64,000 nucleotides of DNA from Astrocystis sublimbata (lineage: Eukaryota > Ascomycota > Sordariomycetes > Xylariales > Xylariaceae). Shown piece by piece: positions 10,463-61,244 of this stretch (positions are counted from its first letter, which is position 1; each line of letters opens with the position of its first letter). The stretch is taken from NCBI GenBank assembly GCA_022453515.1, contig JAJNNY010000021.1:62001-126000 (forward strand), given 5' to 3'. A model generated the notes under the pieces. That model had not been told where the DNA came from and made no database searches. It saw only the letters and a program-made list of their open reading frames with translations. Both the position numbers and the translations under genes were made by a program.

Positions 10463-11726
10463 ATGAAGGCCACACTCATCGCTCCGCTCGTCGCCGCCGC
10501 TTGCGCGAGCGCCTCGCCCGCCGAGGTCGCCGCGCGACAAAGCTGCCCCGGCGTCTATGTCTTCGGCGCACGCGAGACGACCGTGGGACCAGGATACGGC
10601 ACTGCGGGGGGTCTCGTGAACCAAGTGCTCGCCGCGTACTCCGGCTCCCAGGTCAGTTCACTGGAGTCTTTTATCCCCTCTTCTGGCAAAGCTCGGAGGC
10701 ATGGATTACCCTGATAGGAAGTATCTATGCTCCCGAGACACCTGCGAACCTATGTCCCACGAGCAGTTTCTTTACGATAAAATGCAATTATTGACTCAGG
10801 CGTGATGAATAAGGCCTCCGCCATCTCGTACCCTGCCTGTGGAGGACAGAGTTCATGCGGGGGGGTCCCGTACGAGCAGTCCGAGGCGCAAGGCACGAGC
10901 GCCGTGGTCTCGGCCGTGAACAGTCTCAACAGCCGCTGCCCGGACACGCAGATCGTGCTCATCGGATACTCCCAGGGCGGGCAGATCATGGATAACGCCC
11001 TCTGTGGCGGGTCGGGCTCAACGCTTTCAGGCAATGCGCTCAAAGCTGTGAAGGCTGCCATCTTCATGGGTGATCCGCATAATGTTGCCGGGTTGCCGTA
11101 TAACGTTGGAACTTGCAATGCGGGAGGGGTGAGTTGTGTCTCTTCACTTTTCTTCGCAGACTCAAGAATGCGACTCTCTGACATGGTGCGTTCTCGTGAT
11201 GTTTAGTTCGCCGCCCGGCCATCCGGGTTCCAGTGCAAGCCCGCCGACCCGAGCATCATCAAGTCGTACTGCGACAATACCGACCCTTACTGCTGCAACG
11301 GCAACGATGCCAACTCGCACCAGCAATACGTCAACAAGTACGGCTCGCAAGCTATGACTTTTATCAAGTCGAAGCTTTCGGTAAGTTCCCTCGTCTCTCT
11401 TAGGCTCAACTACCCAACTTTCTCCGTGCCCAGTCACGCCTGTTTACATACCTCATGATGCACACACACCTTGACTGAATACGTTTAACGAACCAAAGGC
11501 CTAGAACTCTGGAGGAACAACGCCTGCTCCTGGCAACGGAGGCGGAAACAATGGTGGTAACGATGGAGGCGACAATAACGGAGGTGGAAGTGGCTGCGCC
11601 GTTGCAAAGTACGGCCAATGCGGAGGTCAGGGCTATAGTGGCTGCACGGCGTGCGCCACTGGCTCGTCTTGCTCGGCTCAGAACCAATACTACTCGCAAT
11701 GTGTGTAGCGCGTTTCCCTATGCCAT
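10463..11726 (+). CDS. CE5 acetylxylan esterase (cutinase fold) with C-terminal CBM1
   Basis: Exons 10463-10651, 10814-11128, 11207-11380 and 11505-11726 give 299 residues. A signal peptide starts at the ATG at 10463. CE5 enzymes remove acetyl groups from xylan. The triad is visible: Ser in the nucleophile elbow GYSQGG, Asp in CDNTDPYCC, His in NSHQQY; the paired cysteines ([17 protein letters not shown]) are typical. A Gly/Asn linker and a CBM1 follow. Intron 1 (162 nt) is the first copy of an introner-like element; using its last AAG as acceptor rebuilds the normal family spacing ([14 protein letters not shown]), while the earlier CAG would hit a stop at once. After the final Cys of the CBM1 the frame runs seven extra residues (VARFPMP) to TGA, because the expected TAG is out of frame by one base. 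Confidence 0.92.
10652..10813 (+). repeat. Introner-like intron, copy 1 (CE5 intron 1)
   Basis: A 162-nt intron (GTCAGT ... AAG). Most of its length aligns with the intron at 58517-58673 in an unrelated ABC transporter gene. Shared blocks in the same order include a TATCCCC start, CTTCTGGCAA, CCGAGACACCTGC, a GAGCA-TCTTTTAC stretch and GCAATT-TGACTC. By eye roughly three quarters of the core positions match. The shared core ends at the TGACTCAG, which looks like a branch-point/acceptor end, 14 nt before the splice site I infer. No other intron in this window matches. Confidence 0.75.
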
Positions 11727-55923: not shown

Positions 55924-58900
55924 ATGATGGATGCCACCAAGACCATCTTGTGCGAAGACGCATCGTTCGGACCAGTCGTTGATCGTGGCTGTCGCGGGGG
56001 CTTCGACTTCACCGGTATGCTTAACCAGTTGCAGCAATGACTCAGAACTGCATATCCTTACTTACGTGGGATCGCGGGACAGTACAGTTTGAGGAGCTGA
56101 TCCTCGCAATCTTGCCGACTGCCGTCTTTCTGCTTGTCTCTCCATTCAGAGCTGTTGCTCTGCTCCGTCGACGAATCACTGCCTCGAGGAGTCGAGTGTA
56201 TGTCGCTAAACTGGTCATCGTAGGTGTCTACACCAGTCTTCAGTTCGCACTCCTGGTTGAGTGGGCACACACGACACTTAGGAGCTCTGTTTCCGTCGCC
56301 TCCACAACTCTGTCCTTGGTATCCGGACTTTCGCTTGCGCTGCTGTCGCACCTGGAGCATGCGAGGTCTATCCGCCCTTCGTTTACTATTATCATTTATT
56401 TGATTCTCACTGTGTTGCTTGACATCGTTCGTGTAAGGACGCAATGGCTTCTAGAGGACGCCAATGGCACGGCAGCCATTCTGACCGCCTCGTTGATCGT
56501 CAAGGTTGTGCTGCTTAGTCTCGAAGCGGTTGAAAAGCGAAGTCTTTTGGTAGGAAGCGGTCGCGAATATCCTCATGAAAGCACAAGCGGGCCATTAAGT
56601 CGCGGCTTTTTTCTGTGGCTAAACTCTCTACTCGTCTCCGGATCTCGCAACGTGCTCTCTTTGACCGACATACCAGCTATCAGCGAGAAGCTTGAGTCAA
56701 GAGCTCTAGCAGCTGGCCTATCAGCGACATGGGATAATTGTATGCTGGCAAATCATCGAGGACCAACGAGGTGGGCATTTGTTAACGTGCAACAGGCAAT
56801 CAGAAAAGGAGGCATGCACTCGCCTTGGCCACAGTGTTGACATTTCGACGTGACATTCTCATCCTCATCTTTCCGAAACTTGCTTACGTAGCCCTTAGTC
56901 TATCTCAGCCTTTCTTGATTCAAGAAGCTGTCAATTTTGTGCAGAGCTCCGAGACTAGAGACAACATCGGCTACGGTCTCATAGGTGGTTTCGCCTTAGT
57001 GTACATTGGCCTTGCTGCCAGTACAGTCTTTCCTCTACTCAGGGAAGAAGCTCACACCCCGTTCCTAGGTCACTCTAGGCTGGGCGTCTCACCTCACCTA
57101 TAGATTGACTACGATGATGCGTGGAGGGCTCATACCACTGATTTATCGCAAAATGTTGCAGAGTCAAGTGGGAAATCCAAACAGTTCAGCAGCCGCCACC
57201 CTGATGAGCACTGATGTGCAGCGCATAACAGAAACATTTCACTACCTGCTAGTAGAAACGATCCCGGCCTTCATTCAGCTCGGTATCGCCACTTACTTGC
57301 TCTATCTTCAACTAGGTGCCGTGTTCGTGGTACTTCTGATTCTGTCTATCGGTAAACTCTCCTCCGTTCGCTTGATACCGTCATGTTTCTGAATGGCCTT
57401 ATTAGCGGGGACATTGTTATCTGGAAAAATAGCCGACAGATTGTCAAAAAGTCAGAAGCTCTGGCTCGAGGCGATCCAGGCTCGAATCAACTTCACGTCC
57501 GAGATTCTTGGCAGCATGAAAAATGTTAAGATGCTGGGACTAACAGAACAGATGGCCAACTTGATCAAAGGATTGCGGAACGATGAGATCGCAAAGTCAA
57601 AGAAATTCCGTCAAGTGCAAGCAACTAACATTTCTATTGGTTGGTGCTCGCTGTAGATTGAAGCTGTAATGAACTCCTTACTTATTGCGCCGATAGTCAA
57701 CATTCCTGAGATCCTTGCTAGGCTACTGCTTTTTGGGGCTTATGCAATTGCTGCACACATCAATGACACCGATGCATTGTCCGTGTCGCAAGCTATCTCC
57801 TCACTCGCATTGATCCTCTTAGTTTCCAAGCCTCTGTCGGATATTCTGATCGCCATCCCACAAGGCTGGAGCGCGTTGGGATGTTTTGGACGAATCCAAA
57901 CATTTCTTAATGAGATTCCTAATCAGAGGCCTTGTCTAGGTGAAGAGCGCGAAAGAGAATCACCCTCAATCTCTCTGGAGCTACGCAAAAGCGACATCTA
58001 TCTGCAGAATGCAAGCTTTGGGTGGTCACGGTCGTCGCAAAACCTTGTAGCTGATGTCACGGTGCGCATCAGCACCTCTGAACCTGGGCTCACTATTCTC
58101 ACCGGCCCCGTGGGCTGTGGCAAGTCTACACTTCTCAAAGGCATATTGAGAGAAACGGCTTTCTGTACAGGTCACATCGAGACTCTGCGTTCTCGCATTG
58201 CGTTTTGCGACCAGACGCCGTGGCTCGTGAATGGCACTATCCGTGCTAACATTATTGCTGAGGCTGAATACGATGAGCTATGGTACCAATCAGTGGTAGC
58301 CTCTTGTGCATTAGATATCGATTTCGACAGACTATCGCATGGTGACTTGACTGTTGTCGGAAGCAAAGGGGCCAAACTCAGCGGAGGCCAAAAGCAACGC
58401 ATAGTAAGCTTTTGCACCGCAGGTCTCAGCAATATGTTAACTTTTGCATCAGTCTGTTGCCAGAGCGGTATACTCCCGCAAATCGATCGCCATCCTCGAC
58501 GATGTACTCAGCGGCTGTATGCAACTCTTGGAAGCCATTATCCCCCCTTCTGGCAAGTCTCGGGAGCATAAATTGCCCTAACAGGTAGCTTTACAACCGA
58601 GACACCTGCAAACCACTGCTTCATGAGCAACTCTTTTACTGTAAAAGGCAATTGCTGACTCCAGCGGTTGTAGTGGATACAGTGACGGAAGAAGTCGTGT
58701 TTCGGGGTGTTTTTGGTTTGAATGGACTCTTCAGGAAAATTGGCACTACGGTACTTCTGGCTACTCATTCTGGTGAGACATACAAAATTTTCACATGTAA
58801 ATGAACTTACCCTACTCACTAATTCATACATAGTCAAGCGACTCCCTGAAGCAAATTTGATTCTCGCCATGAACGAATACGGGAAGATCGTCGAGCAAGG

Positions 58901-61244
58901 CAAATTTGCGGAATTGAACGTCCCCGGTCGATATGTCCATAGCCTTAGGATTAACACCCAGTCCACACTTGACTTGGGCGATGAGGATCAGACTAGCAAG
59001 CAGTACATTGCAGGGAGTACAGGCTTTCAGGCCGCGGTCGAGGGCAAAGATTCAGGCCGCCAAACAGGCGACTGGGCAACCTACAAATACTATGTAGCTG
59101 CACTTGGTCGCTCGAAATTATTGCTCTTCGTCGTCTTTGTAATCCTCAACGAAGCTGCCAATGGTGTACAATGTTTGTTGCCTCTCTCCATATATAAGTG
59201 CGCTGCTAACAGACGTCATAGCACTGTGGCTGAACTGGTGGGCGCAAAGTAATGAGCGAGGCGACCCTCCTCGACTTGGCTACTGGCTTGGTGTTTTCGC
59301 TGCCTTTAGCGTCGCTGAAGTGGTCGGCTTAGTTGTTTCTATCACGTAACTAATCTACTATAAGCATCACGTTGGGCCCATTACTAACTAGTCGTAAGGT
59401 ATCTATATGTCGATATAACGCCCAATGGGGGGAAACATCTTCACAGTTCGATCTTAACGTCAACCCTAAACGCGCCCATGTCATTCCTAGCCCAGATAGA
59501 AACGGGAGTCTTGCTCAATAGGTAGTATACTCCTGCCCGCTACATTTCCTGTTATTCTCTAACTGTTACTAGGTTCAGTCAAGATCTTCGTCTGACAGAC
59601 ACAATTCTACCGGGCGCTATCATCAATGTTGCTTTCCGTAAGCAGTCATTATTTCATTACATAGGTATCTGGTACGACGAGCCTGACGATTTACAGAACT
59701 TGGCCAGTGCGTAGTTGCTACGGTGCTAGCCGCAACAGCCGTAGGGTACTTCGCTGCTGTTTTGCCATTTGTGATTTTTGTGCTGTATCTCATACAACGA
59801 TTTTACCTCCGCACATCCAGACAACTTCGATTGTTAGAGTGAGTCGCTATAAATATGTGCATGGGATGACGATGTCGACTATAACTAACAGTGCTTCAGA
59901 CTTGAAACGAGTGCTCCTCTTTTCTCGCATTTATTGAGACCCTTAACGGCCTGGTAACAATTCGTGCGTTCGGATGGACCGAGGCCTACACGAACAAGAC
60001 CAACAGACTACTTGATCAATCTTAGAAGCCATTCTACCTTCTCCTCTGCATTCAACGATGGCTGGTACTGGTCCTTGATCTCGTAGTCGCTGGTCTCGCC
60101 GTTCTCCTTATGGGTCTGGCTGTCGCACTTCGATCTACGATTAATCCTGGTCTCCTAGGAATCGCGCTCGTTCAGCTAACTAGCCTTTCTCTCGCCCTTA
60201 CTGCATTGGTGCAGTTTTGGACTCTTTTGGAAACTTCTCTGGGCGCCATCGCGAGAATCAAGGACTTCTCGGAATCTACGCCAAGCGAAGCTATTACAGA
60301 AGAATCGACCGAACCTCCTCCAAACTGGCCAAATCACGGCGCTTTGACTTTTGAGTCGGTATCTGCTCGATATCTAGAGGACAGTCCTTTGATTCTCAAT
60401 AATGTCAGCTTGTCGGTCAAGGGAGGCCAGAAGGTTGGCATAGTTGGGCGAACCGGCAGGTATGTGACTTCAAGCAGACTCGACTGGTACCAAGCGCAGA
60501 CACTAAGTTAATAATACTACTCAGCGGAAAGAGTTCGACGGTCCAGACTATTCTCCGAATGATCAACATCGAGCGTGGTAAAATCCTCATTGACAACGTC
60601 GATTTGGCAACACTTACAGGCGCGGTGGTTCGGGACCACGTCACTACACTGACGCAAGACCCTTTTCTGTTTCCAGCATCAATTCGAACGAATATTGATC
60701 CTGTGGGGATACATACAGATGATGAAATCTGTGCTGCGCTTGACAAAGTGAAGCTATGGAGTGTCCTGCGAGACAGAAGCAGGGTTGGTCATGAAAATGT
60801 TAACGCTGTGCTTAACACAAATCTACATGAGGACCTACTGTCGCATGGTCAGCGCCAACTATTCTGCCTCGCGCGGTCTTTGCTCAAGCCCGGGAAGGTG
60901 CTGGTACTTGACGAGCCTACGAGCAGGTACGTGCTGCGAGTAATCGCTCCTTCGTTGCGGTGTTGTCAATGCGCTAATGATGAGTTTGCAGTGTCGATTC
61001 CAGTACTGATACTCAGATGCAAGCAATCATCCGCGACGAGTTCAAAGACCGCACGGTCATCATGATAGCGCATCGCCTGTCCACCTTGCTTGATTTCGAC
61101 CTCGTTCTGGTCTTAGATCAGGGCTCGGTCGTCGAGAGTGGAAATCCCACTGAGCTGCTCAGAGACCCCTTGAGTCGTTTCGCGAACATGTACTACGGAT
61201 CTGTTGGACAACCACGACAGGGACAGGATACTAAGGCTAAGTGA
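55924..61244 (+). pseudogene. Decayed ABCC (MRP-type) multidrug ABC transporter
   Basis: About 15 exons can be followed from MMDATKTILCEDASFGPV at 55924 to TGA at 61244. They give the full ABCC order: N-terminal span region, TMD1, NBD1 (Walker A GPVGCGKST, signature LSGGQKQR, Walker B AILDDVLSG), TMD2 (FSQDLRLTDTILPG) and NBD2 (Walker A GRTGSGKSST, unusual signature LSHGQRQ, LVLDEPTSSVD). Defects: exon 3 to 4 (near 57025-57103) lacks the usual YWHK-type loop; an in-frame TAG at 57654-57656; a one-base loss near 59931 that shifts LFSH|IETL; a TAG at 60023-60025 where the family has Gln (SQKP). CAG to TAG is a CpA to TpA change. NBD1 holds introner-like copy 2. Outside these breaks the splice sites are intact, so decay is recent or some breaks are assembly errors. 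Confidence 0.75.
58517..58673 (+). repeat. Introner-like intron, copy 2 (ABCC gene, NBD1)
   Basis: A 157-nt intron (GTATGC ... GTAG) splitting the D-loop region: LDDVLSG before, LDTVTEE after. It aligns with the CE5 intron at 10652-10813 over almost its full length in the same orientation relative to transcription. The shared core ends with TGCTGACTCCAG; the acceptor that restores the family sequence lies nine bases further on. As in copy 1, the homologous end and the inferred splice site therefore differ by a few bases. Confidence 0.75.

Follow-up and report, generated by a model that had tools for sequence, protein, structure and literature searches.

The origin of introns is a long-standing open question, and the ascomycete families described without target-site duplications (TSDs), terminal inverted repeats (TIRs) or exon bias, in the sections of the literature cited here, leave models of intron gain little to test. 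The window analysed here, i.e. the whole stretch of 64,000 nucleotides of Astrocystis sublimbata DNA, brings this question down to a single locus: intron 1 of a CE5 esterase gene resembles an intron of an ABCC transporter gene, and a sequence-only reading had proposed that both are copies of an introner-like element, an intron that spreads. Is the resemblance real, how many relatives do these introns have in the genome, how do they sit in their host genes and by which route might they have been copied?

Two homologous introns in unrelated genes

Within the window, blastn aligned the CE5 intron (copy 1) with 58538-58661 of the plus strand, inside the ABCC intron (copy 2), at 73.2% identity over 127 nt (E 2.1e-16), and all remaining matches to copy 1, the self-match excluded, had E-values of at least 0.096. 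A covariance model built from 47 family introns, both window copies included, placed two sites in the window at E ≤ 1 and none beyond copies 1 and 2. The homology proposed from the letters therefore stands, as do the two intron lengths (Table 1) and the unrelatedness of the flanking exons, which encode a CE5 protein in one case and an ABCC transporter in the other. Chance similarity was excluded by this E-value and then by the 117 places located in the genome (see below). Two of the three shared blocks that had been singled out, CTTCTGGCAA (at 10680 and 58547) and CCGAGACACCTGC (at 10733 and 58597), occur exactly twice each on the plus strand of the 64 kb; the halves of the third, GCAATT and TGACTC, occur 16 and 15 times and are not special alone.

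The CE5 host gene has four exons and encodes an acetylxylan esterase with a CBM1 domain. Its spliced model is identical to the public A. sublimbata protein P0001 (100% over 293 aa), so that copy 1 is excised in the public annotation exactly as in the model; the intron would presumably be spliced out in vivo as well. The branch-point candidate TTGAC of copy 1 fits RYURAY, the consensus given for A. nidulans in the part of PMC12403724 cited here. Rfam returned zero matches at E ≤ 1 for 10500-11000. Regarding the other host, the ABCC gene (56025-59250) carries in-frame stops at 57390 and 57654 when read in the frame of the upstream exons, for which unmodelled introns or decay are candidates.

Table 1. 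Coordinates in the window of the two introner copies, their sequence features and the CE5 host gene
Feature	Positions	Strand	Basis or remark
Introner copy 1 (F1)	10652..10813	+	162 nt, phase-0 intron 1 of CE5 gene, CAG^GTCAGT...AATAAG^GCC
Introner copy 2 (F2)	58517..58673	+	157 nt, ABCC gene, CT^GTATGC...GTTGTAG^TGG
CE5 acetylxylan esterase exon 1	10463..10651	+	spliced model
CE5 exon 2	10814..11128	+	ungapped over the junction against structure 1bs9
CE5 exon 3	11207..11380	+	spliced model equals public protein
CE5 exon 4 (CBM1 domain)	11505..11708	+	stop codon closes the exon
5' near-terminal inverted repeat, copy 1, CTGGAGTC	10661..10668	+	stem pairing and column identity, 47 introns
3' near-terminal inverted repeat, copy 1, degenerate (GACTCAGG for GACTCCAG)	10793..10800	+	
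Central hairpin of intron RNA, copy 1	10692..10737	+	single-sequence fold and pair counts in 47 copies
3' near-terminal inverted repeat, copy 2, GACTCCAG	58657..58664	+	
5' near-terminal inverted repeat, copy 2, degenerate (TTGGAAGC)	58528..58535	+	
Likely branch point TTGAC, copy 1	10791-10795	+	overlapped by 3' inverted repeat

Copy number, subfamilies and age

Genome searches with either intron, whose counts are lower bounds, each scored at least 40 places with the query included, and the two window introns are accordingly far from being the only hits in the genome. The search with copy 1 had 108 candidates, of which 40 were scored, the query among them, all at 75-100% identity and each covering 120 or more of the 162 query nucleotides, besides a single 17-nt match at E 1.7; for copy 2, 40 of 144 candidates were scored, again including the query. 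The pattern CTGGAGTC-N(105-135)-GACTCCAG retrieved 38 genome places against 0 for the reversed control, the same repeat pair at a spacing of 75-104 retrieved 1 place against 1 in the control, and two sets of end patterns retrieved 34 places against 6 and 54 against 5. The union of located places, which also drew on two further copies used as queries, amounts to 117 on 47 contigs of the 42.6-Mb genome, a figure that counts partial copies and probable duplicates in the assembly as well. When up to three mismatches are allowed, the core motif CTCCCGAGACACCTGCAAA occurs at 156 places against 7 in the control and therefore suggests a family of about 150 copies. Thus, the sequence-only reading was right in expecting many copies genome-wide. 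The presence of two in 64 kb was a matter of luck, since an average of about 0.18 per window follows from 117 places in 42.6 Mb.

Some located places appear to be doublets of others. The copies at G000:C11:39264-39399 and C11:53731-53866 have the same listed string in opposite orientation, 14 kb apart, and one of them dropped out as a duplicate, flank included, which suggests an inverted segmental duplication and not two insertions. Those at G000:C95:5874-6027 and C107:516617-516770 share the same match statistics, one lying on a 13-kb contig, and probably represent a duplicated or alternative piece of the assembly.

Both ends were mapped in 59 of 68 distinct copies; the ends of L017, L022, L024, L046 and L056 were placed by hand. 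Subfamilies, like the inverted repeats and the subfamily-specific insertion sites described below, go beyond what had been read from the window. Four classes were set from the terminal letters, after inspection of these: F1 (GTCAGTTCA...GTGATAAATAG), F2 (GTATGCAACTC...CGGTTGCAG), F3 (GTATGTAGTTCG...CGGTATAG) and F4, a mixed class by end sequences. When copies were compared by interior sequence, two short ones being left out, the nearest relative belonged to the copy's own class for 24 of 27 F1, 28 of 31 F2, 4 of 5 F3 and 5 of 10 F4 members, and mean identity is 82.7% within F1, 82.4% within F2 and 74.7% between the two. L025 and L026 are identical across 157 nt and their flanks match at 19/60 and 16/60 positions, near chance; 24 more pairs are 94-98.7% identical, with unrelated flanks. 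Such near-identical copies in unrelated surroundings imply recent copying, i.e. a family that would have moved recently. Two members each are found in L037, L044, L051 and L014, the first being an arginase-family gene with two F2 copies 216 nt apart.

Location in genes and seamless junctions

After removal of the intron, an open frame of at least 100 codons was found in sense in 50/59 copies, in antisense in 25/59 and in 256/516 random controls. Codon usage, read in 150-nt windows that are noisy enough to miss the known genes L025 and L056, supported one and the same sense frame to the left and right of the intron in 31/59 copies, a common antisense frame in 1/59, two different sense frames in 7/59 and neither in 20/59. 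Ten gene-like spliced segments, hand-picked out of 30, were submitted to a Pfam search; eight matched a family and the other two did not, and five contain a domain that extends across the junction (GH43, amino-acid permease, 6PGD, Na/H exchanger and arginase). Most of the 59 copies read therefore lie in sense coding sequence, a location that is not established copy by copy because some sense frame also stays open through the intron in 15 of them and codon usage gives no common frame in 27.

Four junctions were compared with homologous proteins. At that of CE5 (F1), structure 1bs9 aligns ungapped, as do, to within six residues, 118 of the 119 listed homologues, the remaining one being gapped there; Gln precedes the junction in 20 of the 21 nearest homologues and in 55 of the 119 listed. 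Two F2 junctions were likewise aligned without gap, those of 6PGD (HNGIEQGMMSVIAE) and ABCC (DDVLSGLDTVTEE, against MRP1, the spliced protein reading LSG-L-DTVTEE). The GH43 intron, another F2 copy, interrupts the codon for the Met of YPMGRE; Met occupies this position in 120/120 fetched homologues, one of which is gapped within six residues of it. Since Met has a single codon, the site before insertion would have read A^TG, and duplication at this F2 site is excluded on the protein comparison. In the cases read closely, copies thus appear to have been inserted without damage to the host gene. The GH43 host is open from its start over about 590 codons once the F2 copy (L038, G000:C77:63783-63935) is removed, and this copy may be its sole intron. 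No Astrocystis-named row occurs among the 120 listed database matches of this host, some of them nameless, so that support from annotation is limited to one gene, CE5.

The locus L028 (G000:C126:166223-169355, minus strand) holds two members, 146 and 157 nt long, that abut directly without an intervening exon, and a third copy about 180 nt upstream. A 60-codon frame runs through when both introns are removed, and the exon after the tandem starts with TGG, the F2/F4 motif. This is probably a tandem (twin) intron, in which we infer that the second member inserted exactly at the 3' splice site of the first; because the first intron was kept, the target would have been DNA or unspliced RNA.

Insertion-site bias

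Flanks were counted at 75 of the 117 places, with 11 more F3 copies added for the F3 count; L026, L041, L066 and the F1 copy of L014 are manual additions among the 75 and, of 16 small loci, L078, L080, L083 and L084 were dropped on account of unclear 3' ends. F1 (n=28) follows an exon ending in AG in 24/28 cases and precedes an exon starting with G in 18/28, giving the motif AG^(G). In F2 (n=32) the next exon starts with T in 31/32 and with TG in 22/32, and the preceding one ends in A in 20/32, i.e. (A)^TG. The motif of F3 (n=16) is Y^GTS, with GT opening the next exon in 15/16 and C or T closing the previous one in 13/16, and the next exon starts with T in 7/10 members of F4 (n=10). The exon-end AG separates F1 (24/28) from F2 and F4 together (2/42) at p 1.6e-12, and the next-exon T separates them (5/28 against 38/42) at p 6e-10; both values are nominal because the copies are related, though the flanks of close copies are not. 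Further out than about three bases, no strong preference is seen in the flanks.

That the motif differs between subfamilies speaks against a general splicing requirement. Selection for splicing strength is an unlikely cause of the F1 exon AG, because F2 lacks AG despite a donor that we take, by U1 rules, to be weaker than that of F1. Hitch-hiking of flanking exon bases from donor to daughter copies was not supported either: outer flank positions shared by nearest relatives are in no clear excess, at 1.89 against 2.06 of 8 in F1 and 2.41 against 2.25 of 9 in F2. In F1 the AG that closes the intron recurs in the exon (24/28), and in F3 the intron's GT does so (15/16); these flanks are compatible both with a 2-bp target duplication with splice-site co-option and with a target preference. 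The 5' and 3' flanks of F2 do not repeat, and TSD models set out by hand for this subfamily (AGT, GT and ATG) were rejected, as each adds or removes bases at the GH43 Met codon, against the protein comparison.

Inverted repeats and RNA structure

The near-terminal inverted repeat CTGGAGTC/GACTCCAG measures 8 bp; it is exact at 38 places, and some copies, including the two in the window, have a degenerate form. Across 47 copies, 95.2% of the cells of this stem are paired and 2/8 pairs vary on both sides; when the central hairpin is added, both-side changes affect 10/22 pairs against 5.1 in shuffles, a value reached by 2/500 shuffles, slid versions giving 1-7. The F2 stem is longer, at 14 pairs, with its outer ends 3 nt from the donor and 1 nt from the acceptor. 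For this subfamily alone, four of five measures were reached by 0/500 shuffles and the fifth, percentage paired, by 22/500; both-side changes affect 1/14 pairs of the stem and 7/14 of the hairpin, slid versions giving 2-6. Support from covariation is thus stronger for the central hairpin than for the near-terminal stem, and in both it can be inflated by the relatedness of the copies.

The 5' arm, which has no known splicing role, has a mean column identity of 94% over the 47 introns, compared with 82% for the intron outside both stems. The whole element also resembles its own reverse complement more than shuffles do, with mean z of 2.0 for F1, 3.0 for F2, 2.6 for F3 and 1.8 for F4, and z > 2 in 12/24, 25/30, 4/5 and 5/10 copies, respectively. 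Folded as a single sequence, copy 1 is not unusually stable (whole-intron z -0.98). A wobble test comparing G-U with A-C changes in the stems gave no significant signal of selection at the RNA level, and the symmetry of the element therefore expresses no preference for RNA over DNA. With the likely branch point lying in its 3' arm, the near-terminal stem would not be expected to form while the intron is being spliced.

Nature of the element and route of copying

Whole-length similarity at unrelated gene positions, a location in genes and in sense orientation for most of the 59 copies, many near-full-length members and seamless junctions in the four checked all bear out the introner-like element of the sequence-only reading, and 10652-10813 is almost certainly a copy of an introner-like family of canonical introns. 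In this reading a canonical spliceosomal intron of about 157 nt is copied, with exact ends, into the coding sequence of genes unrelated to one another, and its removal by the spliceosome is expected to leave the protein unchanged. How such a copy would be made is a matter of much lower confidence. We consider the likeliest form inserted to be the excised intron RNA, its ends held together by the near-terminal stem, which would enter transcribed DNA at a short exonic motif that it prefers, through reverse splicing by the spliceosome or through capture in break repair, and would afterwards be converted to DNA. Sense location, exact ends and the lack of duplication in F2 favour such an insertion of excised intron RNA, while the symmetry and the two-base repeats of F1 and F3 leave room for DNA transposition; plain spliceosomal reverse splicing, in addition, would not lead one to expect targets that differ by subfamily. 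On balance we give the RNA route an even chance, and hold the introner reading and this route, taken jointly with the weight on the former, to be probable.

A non-autonomous DNA transposon of MITE type that became an introner, its inverted-repeat ends read by a transposase and one splice site borrowed from the TSD (AG in F1, GT in F3), would account for the near-terminal inverted repeats present in the family (8 bp; 14 pairs in F2), the partial symmetry of the whole element and the exon bases repeated in F1 and F3. It meets its main obstacle in F2, the largest subfamily read, where flanks do not repeat and the invariant GH43 Met leaves A^TG without duplication; moreover, copies with long flanks lie mostly in sense coding sequence, and no longer element with the same ends was encountered in a non-systematic look, so that we regard this explanation as rather unlikely. 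Helitrons, which insert between A and T and have the termini TC...CTRR, were also considered and rejected: the A^T of F2 is partial (A 20/32, T 31/32), its ends are GTATGC...GCAG, and F1 targets AG^G.

A MITE riding as a passenger inside ordinary old introns could explain why the terminal 9-12 nt vary by subfamily around a common core. Within subfamilies, however, homology reaches the splice sites in unrelated genes and falls to chance level within about three bases beyond them; because it ends there, we reject, for the copies read, the passenger, which the near-identical copies in unrelated flanks make still harder to sustain and which we judge extremely improbable. Membership in the Xylariales sister-stwintron family, or descent from it as a cropped canonical derivative, draws support from the same fungal order, seamless insertion, terminal symmetry and near-terminal inverted repeats (in the sections of PMC8469720 and PMC12403724 cited here), and from a central AGGT, able in principle to join two abutting introns, in 42/75 copies. 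The central AGT of the [D1,2] type, on the other hand, occurs in only 14/75, on which ground a [D1,2] stwintron was rejected; one exact form of the NTIRE-10 pair (GTATAAAAAC / GTTTTTATRY, spacing 140-169) has 0 genome places, full pairs occurring in a minority of members according to its authors; and the strong exon bias seen here is absent from stwintrons as those sections of PMC8469720 and PMC12403724 describe them. This origin is accordingly very unlikely.

Returning to the introner family, its subfamilies might carry their own target specificity, AG^G for F1, A^TG for F2 and Y^GTS for F3, with no necessary duplication, as if the site were chosen by pairing through the intron ends or an internal guide. 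We hold this to be a tentative and on the whole doubtful proposal; by eye, 4-mer matches between an internal guide and the target are too frequent by chance to count. Site choice by pairing is a property of retrohoming group II introns and of guide-using single-strand transposons, and the proposal, if true, would make a spliceosomal intron act as a sequence-addressed mobile element. One genome with more than 100 related copies, two of them identical, and with subfamilies that differ in both ends and insertion motif links intron sequence to target choice, makes the mechanism testable and offers a rare handle on how genes gain introns.

Comparison with known systems

Introner-like elements of Dothideomycetes were reportedly described by van der Burgt in 2012, and DNA-transposon introners by Huff in 2016. 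The parallel that the sequence-only reading drew with the former is apt for the type of element and not for the host, A. sublimbata being a sordariomycete (Xylariaceae). As presented in the passages of PMC4457414 (Collemare 2015) and PMC8469720 cited here, the dothideomycete elements are likewise near-identical canonical introns, seamless, in many unrelated genes and with a stable secondary structure, and the AG/GY insertion preference cited for them in PMC8469720 resembles that of F1; by description, the basis of this comparison, they differ in host class and from the ^TG of F2 and the ^GT of F3. With DNA-transposon introners, as outlined in the text of PMC9860276 cited here (Gozashti 2022), the family shares inverted repeats, and F1 and F3 can be read as splice-site co-option, whereas F2 is without duplication; the same text also reports ascomycete introner families without TIRs or TSDs.

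A title and abstract-opening search of the open-licence PMC literature found no publication on the A. sublimbata intron family, and the main text of PMC12403724 does not name Astrocystis. The closest relatives by taxonomy are the stwintrons of Xylariales (Fekete 2025, PMC12403724), which in the sections cited share with our family the order, seamless sense insertion, terminal symmetry and near-terminal inverted repeats. Unlike them, the A. sublimbata elements are single canonical introns of about 157 nt, carry the inverted repeat CTGGAGTC in place of GUAUAAAAAC, have a likely branch point inside the 3' arm and show a strong subfamily-specific exon bias, where PMC8469720 and PMC12403724, in the same sections, report symmetry without exon bias for related fungi. 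The family therefore consists of canonical introner-like introns, being neither stwintrons nor an ordinary MITE, and it adds non-stwintron introners to the Xylariaceae, for which the literature found, in the sections cited, describes stwintrons.
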